Shown piece by piece: positions 9,997 through 17,144 of a DNA stretch of 64,000 nucleotides. Position numbers and translations under genes: made by a program. This DNA is from Pyrenophora tritici-repentis. Taxonomy: Eukaryota; Ascomycota; Dothideomycetes; Pleosporales; Pleosporaceae. Numbering within the stretch: position 1 is the first letter of the stretch; each line of letters opens with the position of its first letter. The stretch spans positions 5,704,001 through 5,768,000 of the forward strand of contig NC_089390.1 of the NCBI RefSeq assembly GCF_003171515.1. Direction: 5' to 3'. Below the pieces are notes generated by a model, which searched no databases, was not told where the DNA came from, and worked only from the letters and a program-made list of their open reading frames with translations.

Positions 9997-12159
9997 ATGC
10001 CCCCTAAAGCTTCTAAGAAGCGCGCGCGTTCGTTAAACGTTCCTACAACCTTAACGAAGCGATTAAGAATTTCAGCAACCCCGCCACTACCTACAACACC
10101 CTCACAAGCTTAGGAGAGGCAGCAGCTCGAGTCACAACCTCAAGAATCACTGTCTACGCCCACCGAGGGCAGCTACGCTGGCACTAGCTCTATAGCAATA
10201 ACAACAGAGATAGCTAAGGATGACTATATTAATAACGGCGGCGATAACTTTAATAGGCTTAATTAGGAGCGGCTTAGAGGTCGCTATATTAAGCCCTTAA
10301 AGCAACCTAGGAGAACACAAAGCTAGGTATATACACTGTGGTGTAGTAGCTTGTCACGTGTTCGGCGTTAGGTAATCGGCGCTAGGGTTGAGTATTTTAG
10401 GACGACTCCGCGTAGAGGAGCTCGACAGTTATCGTACACCATTCTTAATACTACCGTTTATTGTTCGGATACCTTCTTGTTCTCTACTCTCTACCGATTG
10501 CGGGTCGGCAGCCTCTCTTCTGACTATTGAGGCTATCCCTCTACCACAACACACAGATACTGCGTCGTGCGTATAGACCAACCTACACGCCCGCTTTAGG
10601 TGTGTAAATACTGCTATATATATAAAGCACTATCCGTTATCATTAACTGCTTAAAAGCCACGTCCTCCGCCGCCGCCTACCTCGCCTAGCCTATTAAGGG
10701 CTATAGCCTTTGCCGTACGGGCTTAATTACTATACTAAAACGCCCAATTAGACAGCTCTTACTGCGCGAGGCGATTAACGGTGGCTTCGAAATATCACAG
10801 TCTATAGCTAACGCAATAGGCAACTTCGATATGCAGCGCTTCCGCCACGCGTTAGTGTTATAGCTCCTTAATAATAACTTGCTAATAGAGATTATTAGTA
10901 GAGCTTTAACACGTGAGCTTTTTAGAGAAGTGAGTACAGAGGCAGAGGGCGCGTTGTGGCGATCCCCGCGTAGTATTGCAACCTACGCGATGCGGCTGTT
11001 CTACGCTATTTGGCCGCAGATTGTTGACGCCTTGTCTAGCGCTGCTAGCAAAATACATATAAGCTTTAACGGCTAGACGACAAAGGGAGGGGCGCGGGGC
11101 TTTTTTAGGATCGTTGCTCACTTTGCCACAGCGTTAGGTGAGATCCACGACCTGCCTATCGCTCTGCCGCAGCTTAACGGTGCCTACACTAGTAAGGCGA
11201 TCGCTATAGCTGTTGTTGCAACACTACGGGCATATAGGATTACGTTAGATACGCTAGGTTACTTCGTACTTAATAATGCTAGCAACAACGACACTACGAT
11301 CGCGGCTGTAGCGCGCGAGTTTAGAGACTTTAACCCGACGCAGCGACGCCTCCGCTGCGGCCCTTACACTATTAACCTTATTAGGCAGGCTCTGCTGTTT
11401 GGCAACAACAAGGACGCGTACGACAACGCTGCCGAACATATCGACGACGAGGAGGCGTTTATAGCAGCGTGGCGTAAGTATAGCGCTCTTGGTACGCTCC
11501 TCTCTGTAATTACATATATTAAAACACCATAGTAATACGCGTTATTTACTAAGTGCCTAGAGGCCTCTAACAACGACCTCCCCGCCGCTGCGTGCGTTAA
11601 GATACTGCGACTGATTAAGCTAGTTGTTACGCGCTGGAACTCATACTACAGCGCTCTCGAGCGGGCAACCTATCTCAAGGGCGGCTTCGATCTCTATATT
11701 GAGAAACACGTGAGCCGCGTCGCCTACGAGGAGCGGCGTGGCACCCAGGGCGACGCTCCGGCGTGGATGAGGTCGGGCGGGCTCTAGGCAGCAGATTGGG
11801 CGGTCGTTACTAAGTACTAACGATGCTTTAAACTACTAAAAATCACTATAAAACGGCTGGAGGGGCGTAGTAAACACTATGGCAGTAGCTTCGGAGCTAT
11901 CCACGAGGTCTTGCCCGTGTTTAAGTATCTACTCGATCAGCTTGAAAAGCTAGCCGAGCTATACGCTGACGTAGTGTTTGACGCACATAAAGAGGCGCCT
12001 AAAGATTACCTTTATATTAACCTACGCAACGCTTAGGTAAAGGCTGAGGAGTATTACTGTCAGATATAATGAGATATTGCACAAAAGTGATGGATGTTGA
12101 TGATTGTGTGTATTGTGTTCTGTCTATCGTGTGTCCGCGCTTGTGGCTACGCTGGCAAA

Positions 12160-12335
12160 TGGGTTGGGTATACCCAGTCTTGGGTTGGGGTTGGGTTGGG
12201 GTCGCACAGACCATGGGTTAGGGTTGGGTTGGGGTCGCACAGACCATGGGTTAGGGCTGGGCTGGGGTCGCACAGACCAAGTGGTAGGGTTGGGCTTGGG
12301 TTGGGTTGGGTTGGGTTGGGGTTGGGTTATATTTT
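12160..12335. repeat. Left subterminal repeat array of inner hAT
   Basis: Three direct copies of a roughly 34-bp unit contain GGTTGGGGTCGCACAGACCA, followed by GGTTGGG-type repeats. The inverted form occurs at 14590-14735. Subterminal repeats in hAT elements are usual transposase-binding sites. Some units contain GGGTTAGGGTTGGG, which looks telomere-like but is part of this array. Confidence 0.8.
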
Positions 12336-12425
12336 TTGGGTACTTTAACGGAACAACACTTAATTAAGATAATGTGTACACGTTGATGATATAGTAGATA
12401 CATAAAACGAGATATATTAACACAG

Positions 12426-13347
12426 CTAATTATCACGGTAGCGCTGAGGACGCTGGCGCTTTCGAGGTGGCAATTGACGCTCCTCCTGGACCTCTTCCTC
12501 CGACTCTTCTTCTGTAGTCTGGTTCTCCTCATCTATATCGAAGGTATGCTCTAACGAGGCTGGAAGCTCAAAAAGATCATTAACCTCGTCAATTGGCTCT
12601 CCATCCTCCCCTAATTGAGCAACTAGGTAGTCTAGACCCTGTTCTTCCTCTTGAGATATTGTATCCTTAAGAACCATTATCTGCTGTATTGTCCGGGCAG
12701 ATAGTCGGTGCCTCCGACTACCAATAACATCCTTAGCAACATTGAAAACTCTTTCAACCCCAACCTGAGCAATTGGTATTGCTAGTATATCCTTCGCCAC
12801 TTGGGATAGTCTATTAGCAGATGTCTATGATAAACAGCTGTGATAACTTACCAGACTTTTTCTGGGTAAACCGCTTCTCTGAAAGTATATCCCACTCTTT
12901 CTCTAGCAGCTTAGCCTGTCTAGCACTATTTGCTAATTTATACTTAGGCTGTTGCAAAAGCGATTTCTTCAGTTGGTACTTCGCGGAGCGGTCGGCTGTT
13001 CTAACGCTTTCAAGTACCTTCTCCTCTTTATCGAAAAGAGCTTTGCGTTCACGTTGAGCAATAGCACGGGCGCTACCACTCAGAGAGCCAGTATAGGGGA
13101 CGCTCAAATTGATAGGTCGGCCTTTTCGTGAACCCCCACTACCTCTTTGATCTAAGATACCGTCAATCTCGTCAGCTTCACACGCAAATCCCTGCTTATA
13201 TTAGCATAAGCTGTGATAAATGGCTGTGATTATTACATCGGTAAGCTGCTCCCACTTATCTTGTTCGAACCCAGGCGGAGGTTCAAGTTTGATGGCTGGA
13301 ACTAGGCCTTCAGGTACGTCGCCGACTTGCTCTTTCGCGACAGGCAT
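12426..13347 (-). CDS. Spliced gene with hAT dimerisation domain but no DDE core
   Basis: My model has three exons, 13347-13237, 13191-12852 and 12799-12426, giving 274 residues with phases that agree at both junctions. The introns (45 and 52 nt) have GTAATA and GTAAGT donors and share the motif TTATCACAG or a near copy. The C-terminal half has the hAT C-terminal dimerisation motif (AKDILAIPIAQVGVERVF), then an acidic and a basic tail ending in RPQRYRDN. The N-terminal half (for example PPPGFEQDKWEQL, KYQLKKSLLQQPKYKLA) is not recognised as transposase and has a Lys/Glu-rich helical look. The RNase H-like catalytic core is absent. It may be a chimera of a captured host fragment with a transposase tail, or a regulatory transposase remnant. 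The start at 13347 is the first ATG in frame. Confidence 0.6.
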
Positions 13348-13857
13348 GGCGGGGACTGTGATAATGCGCTGTTGTAAATGGGGTGTTTTCAATGTAGTAA
13401 AGAGAGTTATTAGGTGTTGGGAGTTACTGGGCGTCAGGGGCTGGAGAAATGGGTAGACAGCATTATGCTCACCTAGAAATGGTCCGTGCGCTGCTGCCTG
13501 CGCTAGCGCGAAAACGCGGAAATTACCCAAAATGATCAACACATCGATGATTCCTTCATTTTTGGGCTGTACGCATGCGCGAGCTCGGCGTTTATCACAG
13601 CAGTTTAACACGTTTGTATGATATGCTCGCTACTGATTTTGCAACAGAAATGGTTGTATGCGATCGTGAAACAGCAAATTACGTCATGCAGTCCGTGCGC
13701 TGCTGCCTTTACTAGTGCGGAAATCGGGAAATTGCCGTCGCCCAAACTTTCCAGCTACCTAACTCTTTCAGCCTACTACTTTCTTAATTGTCGACCACAT
13801 TTATCACAGTAATTAATCACATACGTCGCCTACGTTCATCATCTACTCTACTACGCA

Positions 13858-14430
13858 ATGGCAAGGACAAAACCACGGCCTAAGGTCACCGGTAAAGCCG
13901 GCCGGGGTGGTCCTGATGGCAAGACAGTTACTGGCGGCAAGCCGGCTCAGAAGGCCCTTGCTAGTAAGGCTAGACGTCAAGTAGCAGGAAAGTCTACGCG
14001 AAAGGCACCTGTAGCTGTTAAGAAGAAGCGCAAGTTTAAGGCCGGCAGTAGGTTATCACAGTCGTTTATCACAGCTATTTTCTAATTTAGCTTAGCTGTC
14101 GCATTACGGGAAATCAAGAGATACCAGAGAGGTTTTGAACTACTCTTGCGAAAACTCCCCTTTTCCCGCGTAGTGCGCGAATTTGCACAGGTGCACAAGG
14201 CCGATATCCGCTTTCAACGATCTGCAATCGAAGCTCTTCAGGAAGCTACAGAAGCTTTCTTAGTTGGTTATTTTGAGGGTATAGTCTATCTACCCTATAC
14301 TATTTTTCATTTAATAACTTTTATAGACTGCAACATCAATGCTATTCACGCAAAGAGGGTTACTATTCAAGAGAAGGATTCTCAATTGGCTAGGCGCTAC
14401 TTTGCGCGCGAGTTACTAGCTTTTCTCTAG
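13858..14430 (+). CDS. Divergent histone H3 variant inside a transposon
   Basis: Three exons (13858-14047, 14096-14278, 14327-14430) encode 158 residues. The N-terminus is [14 protein letters not shown], against ARTKQTARKSTGG in H3, and the tail is about 20 residues longer. ALASKARR matches the H3 K23-K27 region. The histone fold is clear: [44 protein letters not shown] and [20 protein letters not shown]. Loop 1 has the canonical H3 length, so it is not an obvious centromeric CenH3. The end is [12 protein letters not shown], unlike RRLRGERS. The classical K9 context ARKS is missing, so K9 methylation signalling may not apply. The two 48-nt introns have GT and AG ends and restore conserved residues at both joints (the TVALRE and FED motifs). 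No stops or frameshifts are present. It could be expressed or a recently captured passenger. Confidence 0.85.
14048..14095 (+). other. Introner-like intron 1 of the H3 gene
   Basis: This 48-nt intron begins GTAGGTTATCACAG and has a second TTATCACAG at 14066-14074. Minus-strand introns at 12800-12851 (GTAAGTTATCACAG) and 13192-13236 (GTAATAATCACAG, then TTTATCACAG) have the same layout. The three introns appear homologous although their host genes are unrelated. Confidence 0.7.
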
Positions 14431-14589
14431 ATTATAAGATATATCTAGATACACGTGCTTAAATGCTAGCTGGCGAAGCCTCTGTATATTATAAATGAAA
14501 CTAGTTAATGCTACACTGTGTTAATCTACTGTGATACTATATAAACTTTTCTTTTATTGAAATCTATATTATACATCTTGCAATTTTTT

Positions 14590-14735
14590 TACTATAACCC
14601 AACCCTAACCCATGGTCCGTGCGACCCCAACCCAACCCCAACCCAACCCTAAGCTTGGCGCTGACAAATGGGTTGGGGTTGGGTTGGGGTCGCAAAATTT
14701 CTAACCCAACCCCAACCACACCCCGACCCATTTGC
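14590..14735. repeat. Right subterminal repeat array of inner hAT
   Basis: The sequence is rich in CCCAACCC, with CATGGTCCGTGCGACCCCAA units that are the reverse complement of the left array at 12160-12335. Part of it folds back on itself around 14655-14715. Confidence 0.75.
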
Positions 14736-15727
14736 CAGCGTACTTGTGGCCCTCTTGAGGGGCGCACTGACCCTCTCTACGCTGATTGGTTGCTGCCAAC
14801 GTCGAGTAACCCTGCTATCTGACAATTACCGTAAGCTCGACGACTTACTAGTACATTACGCCGCTACTTGTCTCTATCCGTACTACAAATACTACTGCGA
14901 GAACTTATAGGAGCATAAAGATGGATGGCTACGTACTGCAAACGCTAGATTTTAAGAGTTGTGGCGGTCATATAAGAAGGCACCGCCGAGTCCTCCACCA
15001 CAACCAGCTCGTACAGGCGCGATCGACGACGTGATCGAAGCCCTCACCGCGCGTCGTAACTGTGCGAGGAGAGACGGCGGCGACGAGTACGATCGCTGGC
15101 TAGAGGAGGAGCCGAGTTGGAGTACTGCAACGTATCACAACGATGGCAACGCAGTCTGATATTGGATGACGATAGCGCCAAAATACCCCTAATTGAGCCG
15201 TTTTGCAATTAATATACTAACTATCTTAGCATTAAGCTGCGAGTGTGAGCGACTATTTAGCGAGCTCGGCGATCTACTAGAGCTAAAACGTCGCGCTATT
15301 AGCAGTGAGCTGCTCGCTGCCTTGCAGCTTATACGCTCTTGGACCCGGGCTGGATACACCTACAACGCCAAGCGTGGCGACGACAATAGCGGCGACGGCG
15401 CTATTAGCGACGACGAGCTCGCCCGCAAATATAGTATACAAAACTGGGTAGAGGACAATCAGAGCGACGCATGAGGCGTCTAGCAGCCGCCTACAACACT
15501 AAAAACTAACGCCAAGACTTTTATACAACACCAAATATTTGCAAATCAATCAAATATACAGCTTCAAAACACCAATCAAACAATCAAATACGGCGCGGTT
15601 GCCAAGCCTTCACCAAACAATCAAATACAGCAGGCGATATTTGATTGATTTGTTTGTTGCGGAGTCTGCCACCTAGACCCTCTGCACACGGCAAAATCCA
15701 CACTCATTATGTTGCCAGCAATTAGGT

Positions 15728-16303
15728 CTAACCTAAGAGATATCGACAAAAATACTCGATCCCTTGCGTACTAGCTTGCATGATATGATTTCTATACAAG
15801 GTTTGCTCGCGCAAAGATGCTGCATCAGGGTTGACTGCTACCGGTCGAGCTACCATCTGCGAACCACGGGTTCGTCTACCACTATTCACCCACCGAAGAT
15901 TATTAGAACTAAAATCACTGCTGAGCGCCGGCGTTTTATGTCCTTTGTCTTGAATGGTTGTGCCGTCGGCGTGTCTTCTGTCATCTTTTTCATCTGCTGC
16001 CGACCATGCCGTGATACCGCAATACCCGCCAGTCAGGGCAATGTAGCCGATCATATTGGCTGTCTTCGGAAAATTGGCCGCCGAAAACCATTACTATGTC
16101 GTGTTGAGACTCATGTCGGATGACGTTTGACAAGACTGGAAGGAGGCACCGATAAAGTCCCGGCGACTCGACATTGCCCAAGAAGCTTGCCTCAAGAATC
16201 CTCCATGAAGTTTTGACGCCAGATTCCCATCCCCAAATTTGGCGGCAGCGATTATTAGAAATAATGCAAATGTCGGCATTAAGGCGGTATTCATTACCAT
16301 CAT
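15728..16303 (-). pseudogene. Unrecognised gene with two adjacent stop codons
   Basis: Reading from the ATG at 16303, an N-terminal hydrophobic stretch (TALMPTFALFLIIAAA) resembles a signal peptide. The frame reaches TAG TAA at 16096-16091 and then continues open in the same frame to 15728. Both stops fit CAG and CAA changed by C-to-T at CpA. The downstream part includes MIGYIALTGGYCGITAW. I do not recognise a family. It lies just outside the outer hAT. It could be a RIP-broken small secreted protein gene, or chance open frame. Confidence 0.35.
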
Positions 16304-16749
16304 TTGTCATCATGTAAAGTTACTCCTGCTAGCGATGTAAACACCTCACCCGAAGATAAGCGTCACAAACTCATGTTCGAAAGAATTGGATAGATTAGAT
16401 GGGTAATAGACGGATGCTGTTACAAAGCCAGAACATTTAGCAGCTATGTTAGCCTTGTGAGGGTGATGTAGGTAGCAGTTCATAAAAAATTCCTTGGCCG
16501 AATGCTAGGCTAACCGATTTACTGCACGTAAGACTTTCCGTATCGACTTTTCGTATCTATTTCATGAATCAGACACATATGCATCATGAACAACAATGAA
16601 GTAAAGAGGTAGAGTAATCATTTATTCATTGGTGTATCTTTAGTGAGCTTAAAGCTTGTCCTTTCCGTATCATCTTCGCCTTCCTTGCAATTGCCATGGA
16701 GGACAGTCTTCCACAAATAATGTTCCTTTCCAAGTCCGCATTGCCCACT

Positions 16750-17144
16750 TCAATTTGGTCCCTTTTTCAACATAGGATCCGATTTGCAGCAATAAGTAGG
16801 GGCCGCCACCTTTTGAAAAATGGTACCTAAAGTCGCAGTCTCGTCAGCTACTTGTCTGAATTACCAAGAGAACCTGTTGGACACATACTGCACGGTGTTG
16901 GTGGTTCAGCCGGTGGGGCGCACTAGATCACAGTTGGTTTAGTAAGATAGACGATTTGATGGATGCAGTTATTCCTTACAGTGATGATGATTTCCTACGC
17001 TTTGTTAGTGGATCCAATATCTGATCTCATTTGCAGGATACTCACATTTCCTGGGCAGTTGCCTTTATCGTGATATCCGCAATTCTGGGCGAAAGATGAT
17101 GAGGCAAGCAGAGCGATGGCTGCAAGGATCTGCGTAGACTTCAT
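16750..17144 (-). CDS. Small secreted six-cysteine protein, candidate effector
   Basis: Four exons are proposed: 17144-17046, 16994-16980, 16922-16889 and 16826-16750, giving 74 residues. Introns are 51, 57 and 62 nt with donors GTGAGT, GTAAGG and GTATGT, branch-like CTAAC or CTGAC, and AG ends; all phases agree. Residues 1-19 form a classical signal peptide (LAAIALLASSSFA). The mature part of about 55 residues has six cysteines, including NCGYHDKGNC near the start and YCC near the end. An alternative model skips the 15-nt exon 2 and keeps the frame. Small size, secretion, even cysteine number and a transposon-rich setting fit fungal effector-like or antimicrobial proteins; no known family is recognised. 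A MITE lies directly upstream of the ATG. Expression is unknown. Confidence 0.65.

Follow-up and report, generated by a model that had tools for sequence, protein, structure and literature searches.

A divergent histone H3 gene without ARKS motifs carried by a multicopy hAT element of Pyrenophora tritici-repentis

The window analysed here, a stretch of 64,000 nucleotides from Pyrenophora tritici-repentis (contig NC_089390.1, positions 5,704,001 to 5,768,000), contains a 2,595-bp hAT element at positions 12148–14742, bordered by a perfect 8-bp target-site duplication. The element resembles other DNA transposons of the hAT superfamily in its 8-bp duplications, short inverted ends and C-terminal hAT dimerisation domain, whereas it differs from them in having two accessory genes, one of which encodes a histone. 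This histone gene, H3L, occupies 13858–14430 on the plus strand and comprises three exons with an open frame of 158 amino acids. The features of the element, in window coordinates, are as follows.

12140–12147, no strand: left target-site duplication, CTTGTGGC
12148–12168, plus strand: left terminal inverted repeat, 21 nt, 95% complementary to 14722–14742
12181–12330, plus strand: left subterminal array, G-rich, partly of 33-bp units (TGGGTTGGGGT...), repeat families D1 and D2
12426–13347, minus strand: chimeric gene, 274 aa, to which the central gene contributes its first exons and the transposase gene its C-terminal part with the hAT dimerisation domain
12800–12851 and 13192–13236, minus strand: putative introns of the chimeric gene, from a splice model made in this analysis
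13858–14047, plus strand: H3L exon 1, encoding the tail and reaching into codon 64
14048–14095, plus strand: H3L intron 1, GT-AG, 48 nt, of the shared intron type, with TTATCACAGTCGTTTATCACAG
14096–14278, plus strand: H3L exon 2, encoding most of the histone fold
14279–14326, plus strand: H3L intron 2, GT-AG, 48 nt, outside the shared intron type
14327–14430, plus strand: H3L exon 3, with the stop codon
14593–14721, minus strand: right subterminal array, the inverted match of the left array, with a 51-nt pair that is 98% complementary and others
14722–14742, minus strand: right terminal inverted repeat, pairing with 12148–12168
14743–14750, no strand: right target-site duplication, CTTGTGGC

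The spliced 274-aa model of the chimeric gene matched the hAT dimerisation domain in Pfam (PF05699, E 1.6e-07). At one site its protein has EQDKWEQ in place of the EQDEWEQ of the long form, described below, a change that is apparently private to the window copy. A second hAT dimerisation domain (PF05699, E 1.3e-07) lies a short way to the right of the element at 15193–15474 on the plus strand, which suggests that a different and older hAT was the insertion site of the element or its neighbour.

H3L matched the Pfam family Histone (PF00125, E 9.4e-32), and the PDB sequence matches listed (60 of 176) were all named H3, the best of them with an E value of 2e-40. Over the histone fold, H3L is identical to the canonical H3 of the host (L038) at 62 of 92 positions and has a loop 1 of the same length. 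It differs from this host protein in its altered C-terminus, which diverges past LARR, in its intron positions and, above all, in its tail, which begins with ARTKP and places 61 residues ahead of GTVALRE, 18 more than the 43 of host H3. The ARTK and TGGK motifs are retained in this tail, and some of its 14 lysines could be modifiable. The canonical tail has ARKS at both K9 and K27, and host H3 indeed has the two motifs; in the comparison of the tails, ARKS was absent from H3L. The sequence-only reading of this DNA had described an intact, divergent H3 gene in three exons within a hAT element with a perfect duplication, with a loop of canonical length, a longer tail starting ARTKP and lacking ARKS at the K9 position, and an unusual C-terminus. 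Our analysis bore out this description, and it showed that the ARKS of K27 is missing as well.

The fold of H3L is also about as close to the centromere-type H3 of the host (CenH3; 61 of 95 positions) as it is to host H3, the two host proteins sharing 68 of 92 positions with each other. Together with the motifs EATEAFLV and REIKRYQ, which H3L has in common with host CenH3, this proximity could be taken to mean that the element acquired a CenH3 that acts at centromeres. Loop 1, however, lacks the three extra residues of host CenH3, R83-F84 is kept, the tail starts with ARTK, and the published account of the gene places H3L in neither group (PMC3538342). We consider a centromeric histone very improbable, and as an identity for H3L we rejected it because loop 1 is too short.

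For an estimate of whether H3L could function in a nucleosome, we scored the positions that we take to be the contacts of H3 with DNA, with H4 and with the second H3. Identity to host H3 was complete at the DNA contacts (17 of 17), and it amounted to 7 of 10 at the H3-H3 and 18 of 31 at the H4-facing positions. Contact positions as a whole were not significantly better conserved than the others (41 of 55 versus 20 of 30 identical; Fisher p 0.46). Since the fold, the loop length and the DNA contacts are kept, it is probable that H3L enters nucleosomes, where it would pair with H4.

At the nucleotide level, the 92 fold codons of H3L and host H3 showed saturated silent divergence (pS 0.91) along with a pN of 0.29, and 42 of the 62 residues that the two proteins have in common are specified by another codon. 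In a neutral control of 500 runs, in which neutral change along one branch lowered identity to the same extent, the mean number of such differing codons was 8.7 and the maximum 19, a contrast that is overstated since the control loads all change on the H3L branch. As 29% of the control runs ended without any stop, the open frame of H3L by itself proves little. Judged by these codons, the fold of H3L was shown to be constrained relative to host H3; host H3 is itself highly constrained, so that some of the silent divergence belongs to the host branch, and constraint on the H3L branch may have been relaxed of late. A recent copy of host H3 (L038) is excluded as the source of H3L by the fold identity of 62 of 92, the saturated silent sites and the different introns.

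These data bear on an alternative to a functional gene, namely that a host or foreign H3 was captured, has been copied along with the element without any role for it, and is drifting. The preservation of 67% identity in the fold despite saturated silent sites speaks against such a passenger, as do the 17 unchanged DNA contacts and the presence in H3L of an intron of the type found in the rest of the element. In its favour, the published account leans towards drift of the H3-like gene, which 'may have undergone drift' (PMC3538342).

The element in the window is not the only form. At both loci that were read whole, a long form of 5.87 kb has the same ends as the short form and perfect 8-bp duplications, and according to our splice models it encodes a transposase of 848 aa, a central protein of 358 aa and H3L. 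The spliced transposase model contains the hAT dimerisation domain (PF05699, E 2.4e-20), whereas for its RNase H-like core there was a single weak match, to PF14372, below the cut-off (E 0.041). The central protein ends in an acidic exon, with 34 D/E versus 6 K/R in 98 residues; a Pfam search with this protein gave nothing above the cut-off, and among PDB sequences there was no match up to E 10. The short form corresponds to the long form minus an inner 3.3 kb, and the aligned pieces overlap by 6 bases at the junction. The window element would thus derive from the long form by a deletion at a 6-bp repeat, which joined the central gene to the tail of the transposase gene and spared H3L. In favour of a passenger gene, the short form retains H3L by default, because the deletion fell elsewhere.

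The presence of three genes in one element, together with the acidic last exon, could also mean that H3L serves transposition, by opening or marking chromatin at the copies so as to allow action of the transposase or splicing of the RNA, with the acidic central protein perhaps acting as a chaperone. We regard such a role as improbable. The central protein has no match in Pfam above the cut-off or among PDB sequences, acidity alone is weak evidence, and the short form retains H3L but is missing the acidic exon as well as the greater part of the transposase.

An element of this anatomy has been described before. Manning et al. (2013; PMC3538342) reported a gene that they named "H3L" in P. tritici-repentis, within a hAT element with a long and a short form. 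Their long form contains a transposase, a central ORF and H3L, the copies are near-identical, the recombination from long to short form was placed at 'gactat', and the in-frame chimera of the short form is stated. The published H3L has tail insertions. The two accounts agree in all of these points and differ in the number of copies, 33 here and 26 there, and in the lengths, 5.87 and 2.6 kb here versus about 5.6 and 2.3 kb there. The window element is the published H3L element, a match made by anatomy and not by the letters of the published sequence, and an H3L in a multiplying mobile element has accordingly been known since 2013. The suspicion in the sequence-only reading that the capture might already have been reported in this species was therefore correct. 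Its call for a search for transcripts is answered in print as well: ESTs of the H3-like gene were found in libraries of pathogenic and non-pathogenic isolates (PMC3538342), which is a further point against a gene that is merely carried along. The same paper posed the question whether altered chromatin lies partly behind recent amplification of transposable elements. To this account we add that ARKS is missing at K9 and K27 alike, the 17 of 17 DNA contacts and the introns shared within the element.

To determine how H3L fares among the copies, we searched the 40.9-Mb genome (41 contigs) from which the window comes with H3L exon 1 as the query. At least 33 copies of the exon were present, 22 of which were identical over 186 bases. 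When the whole element was aligned to the fetched loci, 22 copies were of the short form seen in the window and 11 of the long form. The 8-bp duplication was perfect in 25 of the 33 copies, including that of the window, and imperfect in 8. Two copies on contig C18 have flanks equal to those of two copies on C7, so that the number of independent sites may be 31. As the loci L029 (C18) and L031 (C7) illustrate, C18 repeats part of C7, either as a real duplication or as an assembly duplicate. Elsewhere, the flanks TTTAGGCC and CTTAGGCT were exchanged between two copies, L015 and L035+L046 (G000:C6, at about 2.88 and 2.91 Mb), as expected for an inversion via recombination between the two. Besides the 33 copies, we found a piece of the transposase without ends or H3L (L044) and a decayed 0.3-kb relative of the central gene (L045:3492–3782; 71% identity) with the rest of the element absent, which is perhaps an older trace of the element family.

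The H3L frame was intact in 30 of the 33 copies, and 27 of them, the window's included, encode exactly the protein of the window. Copies and intact frames in such numbers are more than chance would give. With an intact frame, splice sites and fold at hand, a pseudogene or fragment is ruled out. The exceptions are L035 and L036, which have in common a 1-base deletion that shifts the frame of H3L, and L037, in which the start codon of H3L is lost and two stops have arisen. Over the common part of 1,937 bp, the window copy differs from the other 32 by 1–8 substitutions in 31 cases, 3 of which were compared over less sequence or in pieces, and by 90 in L037. In the 32 copies without L037, the distinct point changes in H3L were two missense and one silent, which is compatible with neutrality, and the copies of this genome are too alike for the dN/dS comparison that the sequence-only reading had suggested. 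Several points here favour a passenger gene: the near-identical copies are too young for decay, the frame would still be open only because of this youth, the frameshift has been tolerated in two copies, and L037 has lost H3L to mutation.

That mutation was clearly repeat-induced point mutation (RIP). L037 is a long copy (G000:C1, about 7525720–7531591) in which C>T and G>A account for 147 of 182 changes, 122 of these 147 in the CpA context. The remaining 32 copies differ very little from each other. At least one episode of RIP thus seems to have occurred in this genome; in the published account, RIP in P. tritici-repentis is rated inefficient, if active (PMC3538342). The RIP composite index was −0.02 for the long element and 0.14 for the window element, with 1.07 in the left flank (10000–12139) and −0.22 in the right flank (14751–16900). 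The H3L region alone scored 0.59 over only 573 bp, which is RIP-like by the index, but its sequence is nearly unchanged in the other copies and so does not reflect fresh mutation of the window copy. The premise of the sequence-only reading that the surrounding element is heavily RIP-mutated did not hold, given the index of 0.14 and the 1–8 substitutions that separate the window copy from 31 of the 32 others. Its argument from a stop-free H3L amid RIP falls likewise, since the window copy is near-identical to the others and the copy that is RIP-mutated does have stops in H3L. A frame that resists RIP in the window copy was accordingly rejected, as this element is not clearly RIP-mutated.

The introns of the element bear on the history of H3L. 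We read seven introns in the long form, and six of them, distributed over the three genes and both strands, contain a pattern like TTATCACAG-NNN-TTTATCACAG after the 5′ splice site and CTAAT ahead of the 3′ end. Of the two H3L introns, the first is among these six and the second is not. In the window, the introns concerned are those at 14048–14095, 12800–12851 and 13192–13236. In pairwise comparisons against shuffled introns, five introns reached z-scores of 4.5–7.6 and transposase intron 1 a weaker 1.8–4.1, while H3L intron 2 scored at most 2.4. The motif TTATCACA occurs 15 times in the long form, both strands counted, as compared with a mean of 0.27 and a maximum of 2 in 300 plain shuffles. 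Of the 74 strict matches to the pattern in the genome, 73 lay no farther than 5 kb from an H3L exon 1, and the remaining one in the transposase fragment L044; with a looser pattern, these numbers were 52 of 55 and one, with two matches elsewhere. At the two outside sites with the double motif (L057 and L058), similarity to the element was confined to stretches of at most 25 bases, and at L058:442–462 the double TTATCACA motif lies next to a frame that by eye resembles a DDE-type transposase. A looser pattern that included a branch site gave 114 matches versus 8 for a reversed-pattern control, and among the matches listed 4 were judged by eye to lie outside the element.

Introner-like elements of fungi place similar intron sequences in several genes. 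The introns described here are alike in this respect, occurring in several genes of a hAT element, but they differ in that the pattern is nearly confined to one transposon family. We therefore discarded a genome-wide introner that has spread through many host genes. The word 'intron' occurs once in the main text of PMC3538342, in the legend to Figure 5, and a description of the shared introns thus seems to be absent there. On our reading of the sequences, the introns may have a common origin or may have been levelled by conversion inside the element. Because intron 1 of H3L is of the element-confined type, H3L was probably present while this type spread or was levelled, and we infer from the shared introns that H3L has resided in the element for long; the likeness could also stem from conversion within the element at any date. 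The pattern common to the introns of all three genes fits a role of H3L in transposition too.

Together, these findings led us to propose, tentatively, that H3L is an H3 variant able to form nucleosomes but out of reach of the usual marks at K9 and K27, and that it is kept as an accessory gene of the hAT element. On present evidence this proposal and a drifting passenger are about equally likely, and we hold each of them to be a real possibility somewhat short of an even chance. According to the proposal, H3L would be a long-resident accessory gene of the hAT family and no fresh capture. In the absence of the ARKS context at K9 and K27, nucleosomes with H3L would be closed to the usual deposition of H3K9me3 and H3K27me3, and enough H3L would dilute silencing, so that the element would be expressed and would move more readily. 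An effect on heterochromatin or on silencing had been offered as speculation in the sequence-only reading. The anatomy, the copy number, the intact frames, the constrained fold, the shared introns and the missing motifs are shown by the analysis, and the ESTs are reported in print; the long residence of H3L, the production of the protein, its entry into nucleosomes and the anti-silencing role are what we infer. The more specific idea that the element keeps H3L, free of both mark motifs, as a dedicated anti-silencing histone, perhaps together with an acidic chaperone of its own and alongside a private intron type common to its genes, appears unlikely to us.

If H3L does enter nucleosomes, a mobile element would be spreading a histone on which the two main silencing marks could not be placed as they usually are. 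The shared introns raise the separate question of how introns grow alike across different genes in one element. Were the proposal true, a transposon would have a direct route to weaken its own silencing, in a genome that holds 30 intact copies of the gene, and it would become a testable question whether transposons alter host chromatin via histones of their own.
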